DNA of 64,000 nucleotides from Anas platyrhynchos (Eukaryota > Chordata > Aves > Anseriformes > Anatidae). The position numbers and the translations under genes were made by a program. The stretch spans positions 18,065,501 through 18,129,500 of the forward strand of contig NC_092601.1 in the NCBI RefSeq assembly GCF_047663525.1, in the 5' to 3' direction. The notes beneath the pieces are model-generated. The model saw only the letters and a list, made by a program, of their open reading frames with translations, made no database searches and was not told the DNA's origin. This document shows positions 16,996-59,700 of this stretch, one piece after another; the stretch's first letter is position 1; every line of letters starts with the position of its first letter.

Positions 16996-17232
16996 GAGCC
17001 CGCCTGCTACTGAATTCATGCTTACACATTTGCCTGCAGAATTAAAAAGGCCTACAACAGTCAGACCCAAAGTCATGCTCTGAAAGGCTGAAAACAGGGC
17101 AATGTCGGAGACTTTTTCATGCCCTCACAGTCATCTTCATCTCGCCCAGCCCTGCCTTGCAGCTCCTGTGGTGGCTGAGCTGCTGCCACTGCTCTCAAAA
17201 TGTCTTTGGCTTTATATGGGAGGTGGTGTATC

Positions 17233-17432
17233 TTTTTATTTTATTTTATTTTATTTTATTTTATTTTATTTTATTTTATTTTATTTTATTTTATTTTATT
17301 TTATTTTATTTTATTATTATTTTATTTTATTTTATTTTATTTTATTTTATTTTATTTTACTCTATTTTATTTTACTCTATTTTATTTTACTCTATTTTAT
17401 TTTACTCTATTTTATTTTACTCTATTTTATTC
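17233..17432. repeat. TTTTA pentanucleotide satellite with 15-bp higher-order unit
   Basis: About 120 bp of TTTTA units, interrupted once near 17311-17320, runs into five exact copies of a 15-bp unit (TTTATTTTACTCTAT) at 17351-17425. The long Phe/Tyr/Leu/Ile open frames across it are translations of the repeat, not genes. Confidence 0.95.
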
Positions 17433-18239
17433 TGCTCCCAGACGTCAGGCAATGCGTAGTCAGAGCTGCCGGCATCCAGCCTTGCCAACAGGCCTTTGAT
17501 GAACACAGCAGAGGGAGGAGGCAGCTGCAACTCTTCTCATCTCTGCAAGGTCGGGGAAACAACATGAGGCTGGCCAGATCCATGCACTCAGGCCATGATA
17601 GCCACAGCCAGGCTGGGCACACCTTCACCATGCCCAATAGGAGCAACCTGTCTGTGCCCCCTCCCCAAAACCCACAGGGGAAGAGGATGGGATCTGCCAG
17701 GGATCCCATGGATTGTGATACTGCATGGGAAGGGACACAGATGCCAATGAATACACGGGTGCTCACACCGGTGTGGACACAACCACATTTATTAGCAATT
17801 TCCTCAGAAAAAGGCAGGGATTCTCTACCCGTCTGGTGTCTTGGGGCAGCCGGAGAGGGAAGAAGCAGAGAGCAGTAAAATGCAACTGGTTAAAAACCAA
17901 CACCCGTTGCCCACACAGAGGAGGGGCTGCAGACACACACCCAGCGCAGTAAATTAGAAAAGGGCAAAAGAAAAGCCTGGGAGCCACCCTCCCCGGGTGT
18001 CCTCCTGCAGGGCGGCGCGGGGGCTCCTGTGGGCAGGGGGCACGAGGGACCCACGCAGAGGGCTGGTAAAACCAAGCACTGCCACAGAAATGCCTTTGGA
18101 GAATTTTTTTTGCCATAAAGTGAATATCCAACTGTAAAAAACCTGTAACAAAAGTTGATATCAGTCCAGGAAAAATTATAACAAGGAGGATGGGAAGGGA
18201 CTTTTTCTTCTTTCCACCATGTAGAAGGAATGTGGATAT

Positions 18240-22391: not shown

Positions 22392-23128
22392 TTAAGGCCT
22401 CGTCAGGGTTGTATAGACCGGCTGGTCCCAGTTAGCAGTGGGGCTGTGGGCCGGCGGGATGGACAAGCCGTTGAGGATGGGCGTCGCGTAGGGGCGCCGC
22501 GAGGAGTGGAAATAGGGATACTGGTAGATGCTGGAGGGGTAGCCGGGGTAGGGGTTGTAGTAGTTGGAGCTCTGGAGGTCCGTGTAGTCACACTGGGAGC
22601 TGGAGAAGGAGGCAGCGGCCGTGGCAGTGGAGGCGGTGGTGGCACAAGCCTGGGCACTGTAGGAGCCATAGTCGGAGTGCGCGGGGGAGCCGTGGGACTG
22701 GTCACTGTAGTGGCTGGGGCTCAGCTGCTCCGTTTTGATGTGCGGCCTTTGCTGGCCTGAGTCAGCAGACGATGGCGACGCCGAGGCCGGGCTTTTGTGA
22801 GTCCACACCTGGTTGGCCCCGCCGGTGCCCGTGGCCGAGTGGGAGTAGGATGCGCCGTAGGAGCCGGCAGCAGCGTTGGGGCCGTGGTCGGCCGGCATGG
22901 CAGCATGGCCATTGAGCGGCAGGTACTGGTCAAACTCGTGCACGTCGAAGGTCTCCATGTTGTTGATGACCTCGCTGCTCAGCTCCGAGATGTCCACGTT
23001 GCTGAAGTCAATGTTCTGGCGGCCACTCTCCACGAGGCGGCGGCCCTCGTGCTTCAGCTCCTGCTTGCTGCCGTGGTGGAGGTCAGTTTTGGGGGTGGTG
23101 GGTGGGGTGGGTGGCCCATGGGTCTGGC
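22392..23128 (-). CDS. SOX8: SOX8 coding exon 3 (K2 and C-terminal transactivation domains)
   Basis: This exon encodes residues 228-472 and the TAA stop at 22392-22394. The acceptor CCTCAG|GC at 23129 restores Gly228 and continues QTHGPPTPPTTPKTDL. Residues about 245-300 are the SoxE K2 transactivation domain (VESGRQNIDFSNVDISEL, METFDVHEFDQYLPLNG). The C-terminal transactivation domain is rich in Ser, Tyr, Pro and Gln and ends in DQPVYTTLTRP, a typical SoxE terminus. Two psi-K-x-E sumoylation-type sites are visible, LKHE around residue 253 and IKTE around residue 359; SoxE factors are known to be SUMO-modified at matching places. Several overlapping open frames on both strands here only reflect the high GC content. 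Confidence 0.97.
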
Positions 23129-24002
23129 CTGAGGACAAAGGGACAGCAAGGCTTTAAGGAGAGCAGCCACAAAATACCCAGTGCCTCCATAAGGCACAAA
23201 AACCACTCATTCTTTCCCCCTCCCAATAGGGAGAGGAAGAAATTTAGATGTATAGCCCCATGTTAGAAGTGGCTGACATCCCCCTGCGACCATATCCTCA
23301 GGTGGGATAAACTGCCTGCAAAGCTTGCAGCAGGGAGATTTTGGGGAGAAGCACCCCACGGAGGTCTTTCCCTGAGGCACAACAGGACAGCCCCACTGCA
23401 CAAACCGCCCCTCGCCTGGGAGAGGAACCCAGGGGGACTCGGAGGGACCCCTCCAAGTGGGCAGCCTGAAGGCAGCTCTGCTTTCCTGGAGCAGAGCAGC
23501 TGTCCCTGCAGGCCAGGAAGGGGCCAGATCCCCAGCCAGGCTGGGCGAGAGCGCAGACGCGTCTGAAGCTGCAGGACGTTCGCAATCCTCCTGGAATCTG
23601 TCAACACGCACCCGGTGCCAATTCACAGCACTGCTGAGAAGCAGGGAGATTTGGGGGGACGCTGCATCTATGGGGCTCACTCCCCAAGCACCCTTCACAT
23701 TATTAACCCTCTCACCCTGCAATTAATTTCCACCCTTCTGGTCCTGCTGCAAAACTGGGGTCCTTTAGCACATTAGGGATTTCCTATTGCACAGTGGACT
23801 ACACGAGCACTTAGTAACTAAAACTGTGGCCACATTCACAACCTGGTGTAAAACCACAGTTCTCAGGGCTTCAGATGCGCCCAGTCCCACCAATATTCCC
23901 GCATGAGCTTGGGGGGCAGATGAGCCTGTGCCTGCTGGCAGGTTCAGGTCTCAAACCAACTTTCCCAGGACCTACAGGATTTTTGCCCACAGCGCCCTTT
24001 AC
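23129..24002 (-). other. SOX8: SOX8 intron 2
   Basis: This 874-bp phase-1 intron begins GTAAAG at 24002 and ends TTTGTCCTCAG at 23129, with a canonical pyrimidine tract. Open frames inside it (for example 23207-23722) have no recognisable protein content. I see no repeat or RNA gene. Confidence 0.9.
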
Positions 24003-24241
24003 CTGCATGATCGCCATGGTGGTGGGAGTCAGCCATGCCCCCCAGCCCGCTGTCCGCTTTGTAGATCTGCGTGCCCGCGTGGTGGCTGAGCTCAGCTCCG
24101 GAGTCGGAGTCGCTCTGCCCAGCTTTTACGCTTTTCCTCCTCCGTGGCTGGTATTTATAATCCGGGTGATCCTTTTTGTGCTGGACCCTGAGCCGCTCAG
24201 CTTCTTCCACGAACGGACGTTTCTCATTTTCACTTAACAAA
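24003..24241 (-). CDS. SOX8: SOX8 coding exon 2 (second half of HMG box)
   Basis: This exon encodes the end of codon 148 through residue 227 and the first base of codon 228. Joining exon 1 (CG) to the first base here (T) gives Arg148, followed by [20 protein letters not shown], the third helix region of the HMG box. The basic stretch RRRK (181-184) is the second nuclear localisation signal. A serine/aspartate-rich linker and a His cluster (about residues 216-226) follow. The acceptor is at 24242-24243 (CCAG|T) and the donor CAG|GTAAAG is at 24002. The acceptor is odd: an 11-A run sits between the pyrimidine tract and the AG. No stop or frameshift is seen, and phases agree with both neighbouring exons. 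Confidence 0.96.
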
Positions 24242-25404
24242 CTGGTTGGGGGTTGATTTTTTTTTTTGTAAGGAAGAGAAAAAAAGTCAAAATTAACATC
24301 ATCCTTAGAAGTTTTTAAACTGTTTTCATACTCATATCCCTGCTTCCCATGCGCTAACCAAAAAGTTCTTTGCAAAACAAATTTGCAGTAGCAAAAAACT
24401 AAATCATACTGCAAACGGGTATTAAATTTTCAATTATAGAAGTATGAAAAAAGCATCCATTACAGATAGATATTGTTGACCAGGCAAAGCAAAATCCCCC
24501 TGCCCATTTTAAATGCCACTTTTTATCCTTTAGCCAAATATTATTCCCATGTTTGTCCTACAAATGCTACCCCCTCGCCACAACCAACAGCGCTGCCCAT
24601 TTCCAGCTTTGTTTAGTCCTTACAAAGAAACCACGAAGGCAACAGCAATAGGATTACTTCTTTTTAAACTCTTCCCCCGCCCCGATCTCTCTTTGCAAAC
24701 TCCCGAGGAAGGTTCAGCCCGCAGTGGGAGCATCTCTGGCCCAAGCGGGTGGGAGAGATGCGGGTTTGGTGCAGTCAGAGCCGCTGTAACACGCGGTAAA
24801 GCACAGCTCATCGCGAGCCCTGGAAAGCTGAGCACCCAGCAAAAAGTTTGCATCAGTGGGAAGCGCTACAGATAACAAGGGAAATGAGAGAGCAGATTAA
24901 AATTACCGCTAAAGATGGGCTTGCTTAGTTTTACAGCTTGTTAAGCAGCAAGCAAGTAAAACCGGACAAAAAAAATAGGAAAAAACATCGTAAGAGACGC
25001 ACTAAGAAAAAAAATCGGAGTTTCTCGGGGACAGGGATGCTGGAAGCAAGGGCAGGAGGGGGCCGGGGCTGCACATCCCGGCTGGGGCAGGGGAAGTCCG
25101 AGGGTGCCGCAGCAGGGGCAGGACCCGCAGCGGGCTCGGCGCAGCGCCCGGCCCCGCAGCGGGGGTTTTCGGCGGCCGGCAGGCTGCGGGGGGATTCCTG
25201 CGCTGCGCTCCGGAACGGCTCGAGAATCCCCCGCGGGGCAGGCAGGCAGGCAGACAGACGCGAAGGAAAGGAAAAAAATAGAAAAAAGAAAAAGGAAGAA
25301 GGGGAAAAAAAAATAAGGAAGAAAAACAAGCAAAAGCGAGGGGAGGTCGGCGGCCGCGCACCCTGCGGGACCCGCTGAGCGCTGCGGGGCGGCTCGGGAC
25401 TCAC
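24242..25404 (-). other. SOX8: SOX8 intron 1
   Basis: This intron of about 1.16 kb splits the HMG box codon series in phase 2. It begins GTGAGT at 25404 and ends ...CCCCCAACCAG at 24242. Its promoter-proximal half (about 25020-25400) is still CpG-island sequence. A minus-strand T/C-rich tract lies at about 25260-25330. I see no coding exon or RNA gene in it. Confidence 0.9.
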
Positions 25405-25847
25405 CGCCAGAGCTTGCCCAGGGTCTTGCTGAGCTCGGCGTTGTGCAGATGCGGGTACTGGTCGGCCAGCTTCCTGCGGGCGGCCTGCGCCCACACCATG
25501 AAGGCGTTCATGGGCCGCTTGACGTGCGGCTTGGCCTTGAGCGATCCGTTGCCCCGCACGGGCATGGGCACCAGGCTCCAGTCGTAGCCCTTCAGCACCT
25601 GCGAGACGGCGTCGCGGATGCAGGCGGGGAAGCGCTCGTCCACCTCGGCCGCGTCCACCTTGGCTCCCAGCGGGGCGGCGCCGGGGGGGCGCGGGGCGGG
25701 CTGGGGGGCGCAGCCCAAGCCCTCGGAGCCGGCGGGGGACAGCGGCGAGTCCGAGTCCGAGTCCACGTGGGACATGGAGCTGGTGGTGCCCGCGGGGCTG
25801 CACGGAGCCTCCAGCGCTTTGTCGTGCTCCTCGGTCATGTTGAGCAT
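25405..25847 (-). CDS. SOX8: SOX8 coding exon 1 (dimerisation domain and first half of HMG box)
   Basis: SOX8 is a SoxE-group nuclear transcription factor (with SOX9 and SOX10) that binds and bends DNA at ACAAAG/ACAATG-type sites. This exon encodes residues 1-147 plus two bases of codon 148. The start is the ATG at 25847, giving [20 protein letters not shown], the usual SOX8 N-terminus. Residues 63-104 hold the SoxE dimerisation domain (core [21 protein letters not shown]). The HMG box begins near 107 ([20 protein letters not shown]) with its first nuclear localisation segment, and [10 protein letters not shown] (138-147) matches the SoxE nuclear export signal. The donor GCG|GTGAGT at 25404 cuts the HMG box just after residue 147, the characteristic SoxE intron position. 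The frame stays open upstream to a GTG at 26003, but no ATG lies there. The assembled protein is 472 residues, close to the usual SOX8 length, with no disruption. Confidence 0.97.
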
Positions 25848-26224
25848 TGGTGGCCGCGGGAGGGGCGGGCGGGCCGGCCGGGGATGGGGGGCGAGCAACA
25901 GGGTGGGAAGGGAAAAGGGAAGGGAAAGGGAGGGGAGGGGGGTGCGGGGCTGAGCCGCCCCGAGGGCGACCGAGTGCCCGGGCGGAGCGGCGGGGCCGCG
26001 CACCCCTCCGCGGGCTGCCGAAGGTTTAAAAAAAAAATAAAATGGAAAAAAAAAAAAAACAAATCGAGAAGTGGAAAAACGCAGGAAAAAAGCGCTGAAA
26101 CTCTGAGATTTCGGCAGGAAAAAATAAGAATATTTGGGAAAAAAAAATAATTAAGAAAATTGGAAGTCTCGCTGCAGTCCCGGCGCCCCGCTCCGCGCCC
26201 CGCGCCCGCCGCCGCGCTCCACGT

Positions 26225-29703: not shown

Positions 29704-31839
29704 CCTGCACTCTTTTAACTTGAAATTGTAACTTTCAGTTAATTTTAATTAAAATAGCATCTGAAGAGCAGAAAAGCTTTGCTCTGAAGAAGAGCCGTAG
29801 CACTGTGTCCAATCTTACAGTGTGCTTGTGAAGACTCCAGCACACAACCAGTGCCTGCTTGTACAACTCTAAGCCTGGATTTATATCGCTGAGCTGCTTG
29901 CAGATCAGTTTTGTTCCAAAATTTGTCATCCATTCGCATGAGATGAGCCCTGTTGCTCTGGATAATTTGGGAATCTAAGGAGTCAGATCCATTTGGAGGG
30001 GTAGAAGGGACAGAACCTGTCTGTAAATTTTAATGAGCGCTGCGGGTATTTGCTCCTCAGCATTTCCATAGCTCCCACCACTGTGCTTAGCTGTGCTCTC
30101 AAAATTCTTGGTGTCACCTGCACAGCAGGAGTGAAAAATGACCGTGTGCTCCCATCTGAGTTACTGCGTTCCAGTCACTGTGTGCTCCCACCACGGCAAG
30201 AACAAGTTTTTATTGTGCAGCCTCATCCAGAGCCCATTATTAGAGACATTTCTGTGGATTGCGAGGAGCTGGGACTCGAGGCTCTCATCCCAGTGACTGG
30301 AAGCATGCTTGCACCCCTTGCACAGCTGCTGCAGTCTGCTGAGAATAGGGTGAAAAGAGAGAGGCTTAAATATTAGTTTAATATTAGTTTTTACTGCGTT
30401 AATGGGGTGCTGAGCTCATGTGTCCCTCCTTTTTCTGGACAGGAAAAGTTTGGCAGCTGCAGGACAAAGTTAATGCAGGAACATGTCCCCCAGCAGCTCT
30501 TTCCCAACCCACGAGCATTTACCTGGCGCTGATACAAAAACCTCTGCACACCTGCACTGGGCAGGACTCTACTGACCTCTCTCCTGCTTAAAAGGCAAGT
30601 GGAGAGGAGTGCACAGGATTCCTATGTCCTGTCCTAGGTTTCAGCATGGCAGAGACATCAGTGAAAAAGGAACTTATTGTTAGAAAGCTTTAATTTCAAA
30701 GGCAATGAGTGCTTCACGAAAATCTTTACATGTTACGTTTGGCATAGAGGGGAATTTCTGCTAAAATAAAATAGCTCGTACTAACAAATGCTTTTATGAT
30801 TATTAATTTTTAATATCCCAGGGGAAAATGTTAACGAGTGGCTTGTTCTGAGTTTTCGTCGTGCAGCTCTCGCAGCCTGCCGTTGCACACTGGTGCTGGC
30901 AGCCACGGACCCGGCGGTGAACGCAATCACAAACCCGAAAGGGACAGCCGTCTCTTTCGGTCTCCGAAAACTTGTATGTGTAAAGACCAAAACCAGCAGA
31001 AAGGAAAAGATATGTCAAGGTGTAATTCCTGTTCAAACATTCTAAGATACCAGTGACATGGCAAAATTTGGTTTTGAGTGATCACCGACACTTTACGATG
31101 ACAATCACAGTTTAAAAGCCAGGTGATGCACTAGCAAGAGATCTGTTCCTTCTTCTTGCAGACTAGATGTCATTTTTTTCAAAATAATGGAGAACCGCAG
31201 TTTTATCACTTAGGATTACCGCGATTATTAATTGTTTGTCCTAGAGTACCGCTTAGGAATCCCACTTCTGAATCAACACCCCCTTGTTACAGACGCTGTA
31301 CAAATACAGTAGGAAAAAAGTAATTCTTCCTCCAAAAATCCTTTTCAGTCCTAATCCTGCTAACCCTGGAGTTAAAGATCGGATTTCCACAGGGAAGGAT
31401 CAGAGATTTTAATGGAAAAAATATTACCGCTGGAAAAATCTTGACTAGTGGAAGGAAGCTCCCAAATTCTTTGTGAGATCCCCATCTCCCATTTAGCAGA
31501 CACAGCTGAATGCTCAGTGGGATTGTGTGTAAGAGTATTATATGTAAGTGAATGTATGTTTTCTTTAGAGGAGTCCCCAAATGTTAATGCTGCTTTACAA
31601 AATAGTTATTTCTGCACACATTCGCTTTCTCTGTTTTATTTAAACCCAATTCCTGGCAGCCAGAGGGGGGAAAGACTAGACCTGAATGAACACAGAGTAA
31701 TTTAGGGTGCCAGGGACAGCAGGGTTGAGGTGCTGGTGGGGACAGCTGCTGGGTGCTGTGACAGTAAATGCTTGTTTCTCTGTCACTTTTGCAGCTGTTT
31801 GGAACACAGCAAAATAGGGTCGGGCGGGGGGACGTGGCG

Positions 31840-33751: not shown

Positions 33752-33965
33752 ATGCTCTCTGCAGGCCGCGACATGGCGGCGCCCAGCGCGGCGCTGAGGC
33801 AGCGGCGGGCGGCACCGGGTGGCGGCGGCGGCCCCGAGGCCCCGGGGAGGGCGGCAGCGGGGGCAGCAGCGGGGGCAGCGGGCGGCGGGGCCGTGCCGCC
33901 GGTATCGCCGGGCACCTTCTGGCTGACCCGCATCGTGCTGCTGCGTGCCGTCGCCCTGCTGTACC
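33752..33965 (+). CDS. LMF1: LMF1 coding exon 1 (N-terminus and first membrane segment)
   Basis: LMF1 (lipase maturation factor 1) is a multi-pass ER membrane protein needed to fold and dimerise lipoprotein lipase, hepatic lipase and endothelial lipase. This exon encodes residues 1-71 plus one base of codon 72. The diagnostic block GTFWLTRIVLLRAVALLY (54-71) matches the conserved start of the first membrane segment in vertebrate LMF1. Two in-frame ATGs exist, 33752 (weak context) and 33773 (G at -3 and G at +4, strong). I took the first because human LMF1 as I recall it also begins seven residues before a MAAP sequence; initiation at the second is quite possible. Residues about 23-50 are a Gly/Ala-rich low-complexity stretch. 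The donor is TACC|GTGAGT at 33966. Joining to exon 2 gives Leu72. Confidence 0.93.
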
Positions 33966-42535: not shown

Positions 42536-42845
42536 TTGTGGCCTTCCTGGTGGCATACCATCAAAACAAGCAGCTGATAGGAGAAAAGGGGCTGCTCCCA
42601 TGTAAACTCTACCTGCAGAGCGTCAAAAAGTATTTCAAAGGGAAGATAAACCTAGATGCTCTGAGCTATGCACCAACAATCATCTGGTTTCTGGACTGGT
42701 CAGACATGGACAGCATCTTGGACAACATCTCTCTGGTCGGCCTGGCAACTTCAGCCTTTGTGCTGGTGACTGGGTGTGCGAACATGGTCCTCATGGCTGT
42801 CCTGTGGGCTCTCTACCTCTCCTTGGTCAACGTTGGACAGATCTG
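42536..42845 (+). CDS. LMF1: LMF1 coding exon 2
   Basis: This exon encodes codon 72 (completed) to two bases of codon 175. The sequence VAFLVAYHQNKQLIGEKGLL PC, then TIIWFLDWSDM and LVTGCANMVLMAVLWALYLS, closely follows human LMF1. It contains the end of membrane segment 1 (about 55-79), a lumenal loop, and two hydrophobic segments at about 135-150 and 154-172. The acceptor is TTCTCCTAG|TT at 42535 after a long pyrimidine tract. The donor is CTG|GTAGGT at 42846; reading through it would give a TAG stop directly after Trp175, so splicing here is required. The exon is 310 nt, phases 1 and 2. LMF1 in human is 567 residues, so this and exon 1 cover under a third of the protein. Confidence 0.95.
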
Positions 42846-45832: not shown

Positions 45833-48800
45833 AGAACAGCAGGGCCACGTACTAGAGGATGGAGCTGCCCTTCTGGATGGTCCCTGGTACTTTGAGCACG
45901 CAGTGGGTTGTAAAAGCCACTGTGTGTGCAGGGAAGAAAGCTGTGCCTGCAGCGGTTGGTGTGAGGTCTGTGATGGACTTCCCAGGATAAGGAGTGCTTT
46001 GGGAACCTCAGAAGCTGAGAAGTGGGGCCAGGATGCTGTCCTGGCCCTAAACCCTTGACTTTGCTTGTTTGCGGTGTGAATTGTATGAAATAAGGTGTGC
46101 TTCGGTTGTGCTCAAAACTAGCGTAGCTTTTAGACATTAACTTTGGTACCTCTAAAATGTAGGGCTGAGCCCACCTTTGCCAAATTTTAAGTGGGCAGCT
46201 TCTGTAATTCTGGGTGTTTTGTTCCCCAAAAAGCTGTGATATTCAGGGTCTGCTCAGGCCAAACGTGGACTTACTGCCTGGGTCACAGGGCATGCACGTA
46301 ACGGTGCCGCTGGTATCACGAGCTCAGCAGGTCTGTCTTAAGATGCTGGAGTTTTCTTCCCTCTGCAATTCTGAACTTTTCCTTTTGAAGTAGGAGGAGG
46401 CTGTCAGGCATCCAGAAGCACTGCAAGAGCACAAAAGAATACTTAATGTCTGACCCATGGGCTGGGTGAAGTGCTTAATTGCTGTGCTGGTTTTCTTGCA
46501 GTTGTTGTAGACTGTTCTTCATTTCAGTAAAGTAACAAGAGTAAAAAGTGGTCCCAGTTTAACTGAAGCTTTTTAATGAAACTAGAGATGCCTAAAAAAA
46601 AATGTAATGGGAACCTCATACTTTAGTGTCCACGTTTTTTAGACTGCAAGTCCTGCTTGTCTCGGTCCAGTCACTAGAGGAATGCCCTGTAGGTCCAGGA
46701 CGAGTGGCTTTGCCTTTCTCCCTGCTCCTTCCCTCCTGAGTATTAATGTGAAAGATTGTAATAGATTTGAACAAGAATGGGAAAAGCTGCCCCTTTGTTT
46801 AAAAGGAAAAATACTTGTTGCGGGTGACCTCGCGAAGCCTCCAGTTGTGGTTTTATTCCCCGTGGGTTGTGCCGGGGCACACGTCTGCAGGGATGGGCCA
46901 TCAGCAGAACAGGTCCTTTGTCAGGCCGGGCTCTCTGGGAGAGGTGTTCTAGCAGAAGTTAAATCATTTTTTGTACCAGAATAGCTAATGCACTTCCAAA
47001 GTGAATTCGTAATTCTGGAATAAAATCACTTTTATCCCACAGTAAGGTGTCTCCAGAGAGCTATTACATTTTCTTATATAAACAAACTCTTAAACTACTT
47101 TGCCACTGATCTCCTGTTTCTTCTTCTGTTGTTTCCTCAGAGAACCACCCCCCTGCCACCCAACATTCAAATGTCATCTGAAAACCCTTTCCTTTCCCAT
47201 GGTTATTGCATTTTTCATTTTACGAAACATCGTCCGCTGCTAGAGAAGCATTCAGTGGTACGGCTTGTAAGACACTTGATACAAAAGCTAGAATTGTGGT
47301 TTTTAAATCCTATTGCCTTTTTCCCTTTCATGACTAAGATTCTGGTAGAGTTACAAGAGCTCAAGGGAATATGTTAAACAAGCCAATAAATAAAACGTTA
47401 TAGCATGAGGTGGCTGCAGCATTCTGTTCACTGTGTTCTTCCCTGGTGGAAAATGTTGGTGGAGCTACTGCTAACAGATATTTAGGATAAAACAAGACTA
47501 TGCAGGCATGCTTTTCTGCAGGGAAAATGGATCTGAGCAGTGCTTCAGCACTGTACAACCCCAGAGGGTGCTGGCAAGTCCTGTTGGAGCTGTGCTCAGG
47601 TGCCCTTTGAAGGCTGCATGCCAAGGTGGCTTCCAAGAAGTTGCAGATGCTTCAGCACTTTGCTAGAGAGGACATGTGTCTGTCTTCTGTCTTTCTGCCC
47701 CCAAATGCTTGCTTTTTTATGTTTAGCTGATTGAACATAATATTAATAGCTTTTAACTTCTAATATTAAGAGCTTAATAGAGGGGCAGGTATACTGCAGG
47801 TCATGAAAGCGTGTCTCTGAGGTGTGTAATTTAATTGCCATTAAATTACCATCCTCAGAAGTTCATTTACAATAGAGAATGAAGAAAGCCTTGTATGTCA
47901 TGGAGGTTTTGTGTTTTATAGGTCTCATTAAAAACCACTTGACCTATGCAGGACTTTAATCACAGTGTTCTGTCTGCTAGCAGATGAACTAGTGAACGGT
48001 TCGTGTTGAACTCCATTAAATGCTAGGGGGCTGATGAGATGCTCCAGGCTGTATTTTTCCCTCTCCAGGAGGGCTTTAGTAGCCATCAGATGTATCTCTT
48101 CCCAATTTTCTTTCCTCTTTTATGTCTATAGCTTTGGTGTATTTTATTATTTTTTATTTTATTTTATTTAAAGTACTTGGGTTTTTGTCTAGTGTCTTCC
48201 CATTCAGTAAAAGCTGGGAACAGAGATTTTCTAAGCTTGTAAATCAAGCAACGTGTGAACTGTGGGCTGGATTTGGCAACTTCATTCCCAAATTTGCTGG
48301 TTTGTGACCCTCTTATGATGAGGGCATAGCGCTTACAGGGATGGCCATTTTAAGACGAGAAGAGACCCAGCCTGACGTGCAAAATTCAGATGGAAGAATC
48401 ACCCGCTGAGCCTCCAGCAAACCAGAGCCACCTCAAGTGTGAATGGTGATATCTACACAGGCTTGGTGCGTTTGAGCTAATGCACACTTTATTCAGCAGC
48501 GTGGGTAGTTCGCTGAGGCTTTCGTGACTGCCCCTGAGCAAGCAAACACTGAAAGATCGCGAGCTGTGCAAGCAGGGAGCAGGAACGTGGGTGTCCTGGG
48601 TTTCACTGGTGTGCTCGGTTCGCTTGGAAAGTTTGCTGAGACTTCTGTATAGGCAGGAGTGGCTGTGCTGAGCTGTGCGTAACTGTATTTAATGATGTGA
48701 TCTTGGCAGGGTCTTTATATTATTTATATTAGTCCATGTCCTGCCTGTCTGGAAGGAATACAAGGGTTGCACTAAAGGACTAGGGTTTAATTAATGTTAG

Positions 48801-54300: not shown

Positions 54301-56722
54301 AATGTGGCCAGCCTGCTTTTCCTCCGTGCGCAAACAGAAGCAATCATCCTGCGTGCTTTGCATGCTGAGCAAAGGGTGTAGTTACACAGAAAAAGGAGGG
54401 ACTCCTTCCCCTGCAGGAGCTGGTACGCCCCAAGGAGCAGGGTGATGGCTTTGTTGCACGGCTCAGGTGGTTTTGGTTGAGTTGGGGCTCATGCAGAATG
54501 GAGCCGTGCCTTCAAGCCAACGTGGCTTGGTGCTGGAGAATGCCCTGGTTGGGACCAAAGTAGCTTGCTGCAGTCTGGACCGTGCAGTGCTACAAGTTTT
54601 TGCTTTCCAGGAATATATTGGACCTGTACTGGTGTTAATCGGCATGAGAATGGGATGGAAACAACTCAACTTCAATATTTGATGGTGTTTATGATTCCCA
54701 GCTGATGCTCACAGTCTCTCTGAGCGTGACATGAGATTTGCCTCTAATGACAAGTCATTGCTAATTACGATGTTTCTCCAACCGGAGAACAGAAATGACA
54801 TCACACTTGCATTTGATTTAGAAAATATGAATGGAATGTGCTTTGAATTCGCAAGATTTCTGGGTTTTGACAATATGCAGATCAAAAGTCGCTCTATTGA
54901 AGTTTTCCGAGCCTCTCAAAATGAAATCCATGTTCTTTTGTCACCGTGTGTCAGTAATGTTTCAAACTCCAGGCAGGCAGGGAGTGACGAGATAAATATA
55001 TATTTAATAAACACTTCTGTTTACTCTGTATAAGCAAGGAAGAGGACTTAGGAAATGGAAAAACAGCAATTAGGTTCCAAACTAGGGTCTGAAGTCCAGG
55101 GGAATTAGGTACCTGCCTGCTTGTACCTATAAAAAATATCCCTGCGAGAAGCCCTGCTGCTTTTATGTATTTGGAGTTGGCCATTTTCTTTGGTTTCCTT
55201 GGCATTTGTATTGCAAGCTTCTTCAGAGAAATAAATTCACAAGTGTTTGCCTGTCATCACATGACAAGTTATGGAGCCTAGATTGATGTAATCAGCAACA
55301 GACACACGTCAGAAAACTATGTGGTTCAGAAGAATACAATATTTTATTAATTCCTCATTTTGTGCATGTCTCTGTGTGTGTGTTTTAAATGAGCCTCAGG
55401 GGGTTCTTTACTTCTGCCAAGAAATAAGAATAATTCCTACAAGTTTGTGTTGAACTGCGCCACAACTGTGGTGGAGAACAGGGAAGTCAGGTTGCCCTTA
55501 ATGACAGATATCTTCATAAAGAGACACTTTTATTAACAACCTTACAACTTATTGTGCATCTCAAAGTTACTGCTCTCTACACATCAGTAGCCCTGTTTGA
55601 AATGGTTAAGTATCAAGTAAAATATTTAGATTGATAGTTTGTGTTGTTGTTTTTTTTTTTTTTAATAACTATTTGAGGTACCTGTGTATGGTATAAGATT
55701 TGTGAATAGGATACTTTCGGTAAGAGAAAATTTTCTGAAAATAGAAAATATTTAGAGGACTTTTGGTTTTGGGTAGAGGTTGTTTTTCCTTTTTTGTTTC
55801 TTTTATTTTTTTGGGGGGGTGTAGGTCAGATAAAAAATATAAAACCCTGGACTGAAGCCCTAATGGGAGGAAACCTATTAGGGAATGTGCCCCAGCTTCA
55901 GCTAACGGCCTTGCAAACACAAATCCTGTCCAGCTCCTGGTGTTGTGGGGCTGGCAGCAACATCCACAACCCCAACATCCCTGCCCTGTGCTCGCAGATG
56001 GGTGCTGCTGGAGCTGTGGCTTTGCGAGCAAAAGAAAGCAGCGAAATAGGCTTCAGGAGACATCCCGTTTATCAGGATGCTAAGCAGCTAAGGCTGAAGG
56101 AAATCTCAATGAGGAAATTAATTTGAATAAAAAAGAATTACATGATGCACCGGGGTGCATTGATGTGAAGGTGGTACAGCAGGCACGTGCCGCTTTGAAG
56201 CACGGGGGATTGCTAAGCAGAAGTGCACAGCACTCAACTGGCACATGACACGGTGCTAGACTTCTCTGTGCTTTAGAAAAAGGGGAAAAAAAGTTTATCA
56301 GCAGGAGGCAACTTCTTGCTTTTTGGGCGAGGAGCTGCTCCTTGTGAAGCCAGCTCAGCCCAGGTGTTACCAGCTGGGATTTGGGATGACACTGTCTCTT
56401 TTGGGAATGCTGCTTTAGCATCTTTACAAAAAGATAGGTGGCTGGTTGCTTGGAGTGCTGAATAACAGCTTAATTCTTCCCCAAAAGGGTTTAATTGGCT
56501 CTTGTCTTTCCAGTCAGCAGGGCAGTTTGAGAAGCAATTTGCCATTTAGTGCCTCTGGGTTGCACGTTGCGTGGCTCAGACATGTTTTCATACTCCCTGA
56601 CAGATGTTTTGAAATTCAAAACCTGTGTGAAGTTTGAAATAAAAGTAATAATGAGGCATAAGTCCCCATGTTTGAACAACTGAGTTTAATTTTTTTTGCT
56701 TTTTCTCCATTTTGTTTTGCAG

Positions 56723-56733
56723 GTATTCCTTTG
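56723..56733 (+). CDS. LMF1: LMF1 11-nt micro-exon (exon 3)
   Basis: A strong pyrimidine tract and TTTTGCAG are followed by GTATTCCTTTG and then a near-consensus donor GTAAGT. With exon 2 ending in TG, the first base completes Trp175; TAT TCC TTT then encode Tyr-Ser-Phe, and the last G starts a Gly codon. This gives ...VNVGQIWYSFG, the order expected from human LMF1 (VNVGHVWYSFGWE). Phase in (2) and phase out (1) both fit. Reading past the donor meets TGA after two codons, so the exon must be spliced on both sides. No later LMF1 exon is recognisable between here and the window end. Confidence 0.85.
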
Positions 56734-59700
56734 GTAAGTGAATAAAAATGAGAAAAATTCTGCAGTAATAATTTATTGGTGCATTTGTGGGTATGTAGTT
56801 TTTACATTACTCTAGCTTTCTTTCTCCCTCTGTCAAACGTTTAAGTTACAATTGTCTTTATTCTCTGCCTTTCATTGTTTTTCTCTGCCTATATGTCAGA
56901 AATGGAAGGAAAGGAAAACTGGAAGTAATTCTGTAAATTGAGACCGAGGGAGTCTTGGTGGAAGGGTTGTGTAGCCACCAGCAGCATCATTCAGAGGGTG
57001 ATTAAAGATGAATGGTTAAATAAGCCCAAGGCTACCAAACGAAATGAGATCTGAAGGACATCTGCTGGGAGGGAATCTGCATCTCTGAAATTGTAATTCC
57101 CTTTCTGCTAATGATTCGTATGAACATCAAGAGCCTCATACTCATTTTATCCTTTTTCCTGCTTGTGCAAGATGTAACTATTGCTTCCTTGGAGTTCTGG
57201 GAGATTGACTTGTGCTTTGCACAGGTTTGATTTTGTTTCAGCATTAAATATTCCAACCTACAGTCAGAGTCTTAATGGAAATTTAGAAATCTAAGTAGAA
57301 AAATTGTTCCTCTCTGTGGAAATATTAAGAAAACAGCTAGAGTACTTCCGACTTTTTGGGGTGAGGAACGATGGTATGGCATAATGTCCCAAAACAGCAT
57401 CTTTTGCTATGCCTGTTCATGCTTTCCGCTTGGTCTTCGGTCCCTCGGATAGGTGAGGTGGAGAGGAAACCAGTCACAAATAAAAATTTTGGTCTATTAT
57501 AAGGCACCAGAGTAAAGTCCGTTTGTGTTGTGTGTATTACTGAGGCTTGCAAATCTGATAAGCAGGTATGCCTCCCCTGCAGGGATTTGTATCCATCTCC
57601 CTGTGTAGGTTGGTCATTTTAATAAGTGGATTTAACATTTGGGTGTATGTGAGATCAGAAAGATGATGCTTTACCAAGTGGAGAAGCAGAAGAGTACGGA
57701 GAATTGTTCTCACTCCCATGTATTTTAGCTAATCGTTCCAAGCAGAACGAGGAGATTTTAACCAGCTGCATTTCACAATACGAATGTTCACTGTAGTGGA
57801 GTTACTGAGGACACCCATCACAGTTTTAACCCAAGTTATTTGTCTTCTGTGTGTTTTCCACTTTCGCCGATAGCTGTAGAAAAACTGCTTTTCCTAAGTG
57901 CTATTTTACATTTCTGTCCCTTTGTGTGCCGACCGGAGAGCCACCCTGTGAGGGCTCCTGAAGTCCTTTGTACGCAGTAGGGACTCTCCCTTTTTTTTTT
58001 GGCTTAAGGACTATTTCTGAATAAGATGAATGAGATGTAAATCTTGAGCTACTTTTGTTAGAGTACAGGAAAACCACAATATTTTTGTTATAATATAGCT
58101 GAAACAACAACACTCCTCCATTGCTGTAGAAGTACATTAAATATTGCTGAGCTCTGGAAGCCTTATTCTTTGGTAGCATCTACTTCAAAGCGGGATTTTT
58201 TTTTTTTTTAATAAAAAAAAAATAATTCCTGGAGAGGTCTTTGTAAATGCTGACTGTTTCCTATTCCCCTCCAGGAAGTGTGCTTTTTTGATACATCTTA
58301 GGATGGATTTTGGTAGCCTCTATTAAAACTGCAGGCTGTCCCTATGAATTTTAAAGAACTCCAGAGCCTGGAAATAACAACAAGCTGTTAGGCCAAATGG
58401 GATCAACTGGTATTGCCACAGGTTTTGCTCTTTGCTCTCACTGCTGTCAGGTAACAGTTATTAAAAACACTCCTCACTTAGGGAACGAGCTGTGAAACAG
58501 CCCTGCTGCGGTGTTCACGGCGTGCAGCACCGGCCGTGTCGGACCGCTCGCCTTCGACAGGCGAAGAGATGCCCTGCAATGCTGATCCTGCACGGGATCA
58601 GCATTTATTGTTATTCTAAATGTGGCTTTAGATGTGGCACGGCATGTTTTGGTGAGCACACGGCAGTTTTGCATCGGGTCCCTCCCCGCGGACAGGCACT
58701 GCTCAGGTGGGCCAGGTCCCTGCCGTGCATGACCTGATGGCTCTTTCTTGTCCCTATTTTCTGCAACTCAGTGCTCTGGAGGTCGAGCATGGACTATGCT
58801 CCAGTGGGACTGCTTGCTGGCCAGAGCACCCTGAACTGTTTCAGTCCTGCCAAGCTGAGCTGAAGCTGATGGGAGTCTCAGGAGGCTGGAGGTGCTGCCT
58901 GCCCTCCGCAGAGCACGCCTTGGGGCCGTACTGCTCCTGGGGAGCTGAGGTGGTATGGCAGAGCCATCCTCAGCCTGAATCTCCTCCCTGGGCTCCTCTG
59001 TCCCGAGGGCTTTCCTTCCTGGCCCTTTTTGTTTGAGTGCCTTGACTCGTTTTGGCACCTTGAGGCTGGTTCAGCTCCAGAAACAGCAAGTCTCGCTCTG
59101 TCTGAAGGTTGCAGCTGTGATGCTGGGGCTAGAAAGAACCAGCAAGGTCAAGTTGTTATCTTTCTTAAAATTAAGGACATCTTTTTCTGCTGGCGTAGAA
59201 TAAGACTAAAGCTACTTCAGCAGATCCGTGGTGTTGACAGCTTTGCTGTTTCTGACCCCCTCTGAGCCAGGGTGTGCTCCTCTAGAACAGTAGTTCCCGA
59301 TGATGCTTCTGTCTGAGATGCCCCCAGGGACGTTGTTTTTCAGTGTGCGGGACTGATTTCATGTGGTGATTTATTATCTCTGCTTGAACAGAGGCTTTGA
59401 AAAAGATGATGCTCTCTTGCAGGCTTTCTTGCCCTCTTCCTTTTGTTCTGCCTTCCTCTTGCGTTAAGTAGCCCCAGATATTCAGAAGACAGCTTGACAG
59501 CACGATGTATGGCCTGAGATGCTACAGCAGTGCTGCTGGATGTGTGAGAGACAGCGGAGGGCTAAGCAGAGCTGCAGAAAGGCTGCAAAGGTTGTGCAGT
59601 TTGTAACGGAGAGCCGAGTCTCTCCGTGGAGCAGAAATCCAGGTGTGCTGTGGGAAAATGATGCAACCCTTCAGGGAGATTCTGACTCTACACTGCTGTC

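Follow-up and report, generated by a model that had tools for sequence, protein, structure and literature searches.

Among vertebrate micro-exons, constitutive inclusion goes with stronger splice sites and a higher T content directly upstream, the motif TGCATG marks alternative ones, and the residues encoded by alternative micro-exons tend to sit in disordered regions (PMC4317164; statements from the literature refer here to the passages covered of each paper). In mouse, the strongest splice signals are found in constitutively included micro-exons (PMC7821500). In the cells examined, the 4-nt exon 2 of MPC1, whose length is not a multiple of three, is constitutively included, also when nonsense-mediated decay (NMD) is blocked, and a 67-nt upstream element together with a 6-nt downstream element is sufficient for its definition (PMC9929638). 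In vertebrate recursive-splicing (RS) exons, joining to the exon before rebuilds a strong donor; the MaxEnt threshold of 5.52 is passed by 3.6% of human exons, and 93.8% of those are constitutive. Recursive splicing is repressed at hundreds of RS-exons by the exon junction complex (EJC) (PMC6224609). Here we analyze a 64,000-nt stretch of the Anas platyrhynchos genome (contig NC_092601.1; hereafter the window), whose + strand carries the start of LMF1: exon 1, exon 2, and then an 11-nt string, GTATTCCTTTG. Judged by its reading phase and encoded residues, this string is very probably a real LMF1 micro-exon.

Reading frame across the candidate micro-exon

The original prediction had placed an 11-nt micro-exon in LMF1, fitting exactly the phases of exon 2 and of the exon that follows. 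The string was found at that position, with GTAAGT directly 3' of it. Exon 2 ends in ...CAG ATC TG, and joining it to the micro-exon gives CAG ATC TG/G TAT TCC TTT G, which reads Q-I-W-Y-S-F-G (here and below, a slash marks a splice junction). Both outer read-throughs meet stops, as had been claimed: reading on from exon 2 yields Trp and a stop, while reading on from the micro-exon yields Gly-Lys and a stop. The element, within the 30-nt limit for a micro-exon, therefore has canonical splice sites and a phase that fits at its upstream junction.

The phase claim held on the exon 2 side, but no next exon was found in the window to match the other side. A motif search of the remaining 7,267 bases of the window gave no exon for the expected GWE..LLE continuation. 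Likewise, the next LMF1 exon was not among the best 40 rows of a tblastn search of the window with four prokaryotic LMF homologues. For this reason, the 3' junction of the micro-exon is inferred.

Two other candidates were rejected. An alternative exon 2 donor, TAG/GTTAAC, has an in-frame stop ahead of the junction and scores 2.0 bits (donor scores are given throughout in bits from a splice-donor matrix other than MaxEntScan). The sole other YSFG string on the + strand beyond position 30000, at 48127, has no preceding AG.

Homology with prokaryotic lipase maturation factors

The strongest evidence for the micro-exon is the homology of the residues it encodes. A tblastn search with the joined 171-aa product, run at a permissive limit, retrieved four plasmid-borne prokaryotic genes (E 2e-5, 5e-5, 2e-3, and 2e-2), the best of which (E 2e-5), one of the four, is annotated "lipase maturation factor family protein". 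All four alignments extend to the last residue of the joined product, the Phe encoded by the micro-exon. In the opposite direction, a window-only tblastn search with the four prokaryotic proteins matched exon 2 with E values from 3.9e-11 to 7.7e-8. Exons 1 and 2 are thus similar to LMF proteins by tblastn in both directions. At the point corresponding to the join, the intron-less homologues read GQIFYGYGWE, GQVWYGFGWE, GQTFYGFGWE, and GQTWYGFGWE.

All four homologues match the Pfam models PF06762 (LMF1) and PF25179 (LMF1_C), and in each of them the PF06762 match starts at the Tyr of the motif. Neither exon 2 alone nor the three joined exons matched an LMF1 model in Pfam, as expected if PF06762 starts at the Tyr that the micro-exon encodes. 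The joined product gave a single sub-threshold match in Pfam, to BSD, nothing useful in NCBIfam, and no relative in the PDB at E up to 1.

Scanning prokaryotic genomes with the joined product likewise found no relative. The same scan with an alignment of the four prokaryotic proteins gave at least 582 relatives, of which the best 80 were kept, all from Streptomyces. Plasmids searched with the protein sequence C-terminal to the motif gave five records. With the five plasmid loci, the set came to 85 loci. The motif [WF]Y[GSA][FY]GWE is present in 84 of the 85, and 21 carry the exact form WYSFGWE. Because one of the two search patterns contained the motif itself, the genome loci were separated by pattern. 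Forty-eight of the 80 miss the motif-containing pattern and match the other one, and the motif is present in all 48. The motif indicates that this very probable micro-exon is coding sequence of old origin.

Five of the LMF family genes (L001, L002, L003, L004, and L085), from actinobacteria and haloarchaea, lie on replicons classed as plasmids.

Splice signals and alternative readings

The micro-exon donor, TTG/GTAAGT, scores 9.12 bits, compared with 8.0 for exon 2 and 5.8 for exon 1, making it the best of the three LMF1 donors in the window; its score is reached by 0.4% of the 3355 + strand GT sites there. On the 5' side, the micro-exon is preceded by TTTTGCAG, in the wider context ...TTTTGTTTTGCAG. 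This region is free of AG from -40 to -2 and holds, within 80 nt, a single yUnAy branch-point candidate, TTAAT, with its A at 56689.

These splice signals, the phase with exon 2, and the homology of the residues all stand behind a constitutive reading, and we consider it highly likely that the LMF1 micro-exon is an obligate, constitutively included exon. For its definition by the spliceosome, the 11-nt exon would depend on a GTAAGT donor close to consensus and on a 3' splice site that is U-rich and has a long AG-free stretch, and these flanking signals would offset the missing room for exonic enhancers within 11 nt. Inclusion would complete Trp168 and add Tyr-Ser-Phe and the first base of Gly172, which together form the start of the PF06762 core motif [WF]Y-x-[FY]-G-W-E. 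Skipping would remove 11 nt and shift the frame, with loss of the core and C-terminal domains, leaving a null transcript that is probably an NMD target. Because this shift would fall ahead of the core domain, a functional short isoform is very unlikely. The micro-exon itself, its phase with exon 2, and the predicted loss of the LMF1 frame on its omission are supported, chiefly by the intron-less homologues.

Several points weigh against a constitutive exon of this kind. The downstream exon lies outside the window and its junction is inferred. The archaeal homologue from Halobellus ramosii (L085) lacks the motif and reads FFDYTYD near residue 120; this protein is possibly a divergent paralogue. 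The 80 genome loci are close Streptomyces relatives rather than independent witnesses. The tract ahead of the micro-exon has 17 pyrimidines in 20 positions (85%, -22 to -3), compared with 19 in 20 (95%) for exon 2, the acceptor tract being counted and not matrix-scored. Constitutive micro-exons tend to have short flanking introns, and their number drops sharply with size, while that of alternative ones does not (PMC4317164). The flanking introns here do not follow this tendency, with 13,877 nt upstream and at least 7,267 nt downstream (to the end of the window). Four other micro-exons of a length not divisible by three were incompletely included in HeLa reporters (PMC9929638). Two UGC triplets, at -26 and -5, lie within 30 nt upstream of the micro-exon, a count made without a chance control. 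UGC is an SRRM4-type enhancer element, and given these triplets, inclusion of the micro-exon may be tissue-dependent. Constitutive inclusion is itself a prediction from DNA.

The alternative that survives best builds on some of these points. The micro-exon would be real but tissue-alternative (neuronal, and dependent on SRRM4, PTBP1, or RBFOX), tuning the LMF1 level through NMD. Its very small size, its length outside the multiples of three, its long introns, and the two upstream UGC triplets would all fit, as would a pyrimidine-rich stretch about 75-100 nt downstream. However, the donor scores high and a U-rich tract lies right at the acceptor. The RBFOX-type TGCATG does not occur in the 300 nt to each side of the micro-exon, and the shorter TGCAT is found a single time, 46 nt downstream. 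The encoded residues belong to a conserved core motif, whereas those of alternative micro-exons tend towards disordered regions (PMC4317164), and skipping would shift the frame ahead of the core domain. On balance, we regard tissue-specific inclusion as improbable.

Recursive splicing, proposed in the original prediction as a possible off-switch, fares less well. Exon 2 would be joined to the micro-exon, and the inner GT would then serve to remove the micro-exon together with intron 3, giving a frame-shifted mRNA. The GT at the exon start, directly after CAG, does have the layout of an RS site, and RS skipping of annotated, mainly constitutive exons occurs on EJC depletion (PMC6224609). Yet 10 of the 111 AG-N11-GT strings from intron 2 onward also begin with GT, and at the micro-exon the GT is what a split Trp codon ending in G gives when a Tyr codon (TAT) comes next. 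The inner GTATTC scores 4.26 bits where it stands in the genome; the rebuilt junction CTG/GTATTC scores 2.26 bits, some 7 bits less than the real donor, which lies 11 nt downstream. Its T, T, and C at +4, +5, and +6 are all off consensus, and of the 3355 + strand GT sites in the window, 22.9% equal or exceed the score of the rebuilt donor. The published threshold of 5.52 belongs to the MaxEnt scale; our bits are an indication and not the published test. LMF1 has no mention in the main text of PMC6224609. The GT at the start of the micro-exon is probably not a working recursive donor, and with a rebuilt donor that looks this weak, we rejected recursive splicing as the main explanation and consider it very unlikely. 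An off-switch of the NMD type through skipping is possible in principle, but it is unsupported here.

We also estimated how often such a string would arise by chance. The pattern AG/G-TAY-NNN-TWY-G/GT occurs once in the 64 kb, against a shuffle mean of 0.04 (4 of 100 shuffles with a match), and a stricter form had no match in 100 shuffles. From intron 2 to the end of the window, the permissive pattern again occurs once; any match was seen in 14 of 2000 shuffles, and in 4 of 2000 when the middle residue was limited to G, S, or A. AG-N11-GT strings as a class are common, whereas in-phase coding with family residues is uncommon. A chance AG...GT match, with YSFG encoded by a different exon beyond the window, would be in keeping with the downstream exon being out of sight and with the 111 such strings in the region, but given the rarity of in-phase candidates with family residues in either set of 2000 shuffles, a donor in the top 0.4% beside an 85% pyrimidine tract, and the missing AG ahead of the YSFG string at 48127, we dismiss coincidence as exceedingly improbable.

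Residue 172, gene layout, and comparison with known systems

Counted from the ATG at 33773, exon 1, exon 2, and the micro-exon add up to 193 + 310 + 11 = 514 coding bases. With this start, residue 143 is Thr, and codon 172, which begins with G, is split after base 514; codon 172 is Gly in the prokaryotic homologues. An alternative in-frame ATG lies 21 nt upstream, at 33752. In human LMF1, which has 11 exons, p.Thr143Met (c.428, exon 2) and p.Gly172Arg have been reported, and c.746 falls in exon 6 (PMC7068683). Since the ATG at 33773 gives both Thr143 and a split Gly172, the numbering of the window agrees with human LMF1 at both residues. Given the exons to which these two positions belong, the stretch from c.428 to c.746 must contain human exons 3 to 5. 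A Gly codon becomes an Arg codon through its first base, which places p.Gly172Arg at c.514; if the junction is conserved, this would be the last base of the micro-exon. The variant is one of four in LMF1 that lowered LPL activity in an expression assay by another group, cited in PMC7068683. The micro-exon could be a fragile point for LMF1 dose. On a conserved junction, p.Gly172Arg might lead to skipping in the genome and so to a null allele, an effect going further than the lowered LPL activity of the assay; we offer this suggestion tentatively and consider it rather doubtful.

In the passages covered, exon 7 is the sole LMF1 exon named in PMC6421687, and PMC8931337 gives an LMF1 splicing event (id 33029) with no exon named. 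Coordinates of LMF1 exon 3 were not found in the covered passages of the LMF1 literature, among the matches listed; PMC8143378 and PMC7885394 gave nothing on exons at all in those passages. The c.514G in PMC11171636 concerns a different gene. No description of an LMF1 micro-exon was found in the literature searched by LMF1 or, among the matches listed, by older gene names; in the one LMF1 paper that contains the word microexon, it stands solely among the references. As far as these searches show, the LMF1 micro-exon as such is new, and it is possibly already in reference annotations.

A gene predictor that misses the 11 nt loses the LMF1 frame past residue 167, so vertebrate LMF1 models deserve a check at this point. 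The micro-exon donor probably divides the codon of Gly172, and variants at the first base of that codon may matter for splicing as well as for their effect on the protein. Comparison with intron-less prokaryotic relatives offers cheap, RNA-free support for such an exon. What remains of interest is the annotation risk and the splicing angle on Gly172, in what is an ordinary though easily missed micro-exon.

Table 1. Features of the LMF1 start in the window (bits from the splice-donor matrix used in the text; a slash marks the splice junction).
Feature	Position	Strand	Remarks
LMF1 exon 1, coding part	33773..33965	+	193 nt, ends in phase 1, donor GTGAGT
LMF1 exon 2	42536..42845	+	310 nt, acceptor TTCTCCTAG, donor CTG/GTAGGT, tblastn support
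Micro-exon 3' splice region	56685..56722	+	Pyrimidine-rich tract, AG-free stretch, branch-point candidate
LMF1 micro-exon (very probable), GTATTCCTTTG	56723..56733	+	11 nt; last base of Trp168, Tyr-Ser-Phe, first base of Gly172
Inner GTATTC, proposed recursive donor	56723..56728	+	Weak, probably unused
Micro-exon donor GTAAGT	56734..56739	+	9.1 bits with TTG

Upstream of LMF1, positions 22392-26003 on the - strand hold a SOX gene in which Pfam recognizes Sox_N and an HMG box that is split; from its neighbourhood it is probably SOX8, in divergent arrangement with LMF1. At 17102-17878, two overlapping + strand open reading frames in different frames encode long FILFY-type peptide repeats, which suggests simple repetitive DNA of a TTTTAT-like kind rather than a gene.

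Set against the lipase maturation factor family, exons 1 and 2 and the micro-exon cover the N-terminal part of the protein up to the opening residues of PF06762, and the motif is common to LMF1 and the prokaryotic members. In the prokaryotic genes examined the motif lies in one unbroken frame, whereas in LMF1 here it would be assembled from exon 2, the micro-exon, and a presumed exon outside the window. Like the annotated RS-exons repressed by the EJC (PMC6224609), the LMF1 micro-exon opens with GT after an AG acceptor; unlike them, it offers a rebuilt donor, CTG/GTATTC, that looks weak, so that a strong recursive 5' splice site is apparently missing. Its closest resemblance is to the constitutive vertebrate micro-exons, with which it shares a tiny coding exon, a high-scoring donor, and a pyrimidine-rich acceptor tract (PMC4317164, PMC9929638). 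It differs from that class in its long flanking introns, although those of the MPC1 micro-exon, at more than 12 kb and more than 3 kb, are long as well and form an exception to the short-intron tendency (PMC9929638). As with MPC1 exon 2, the length of the LMF1 micro-exon is not a multiple of three, and its loss would shift the reading frame.

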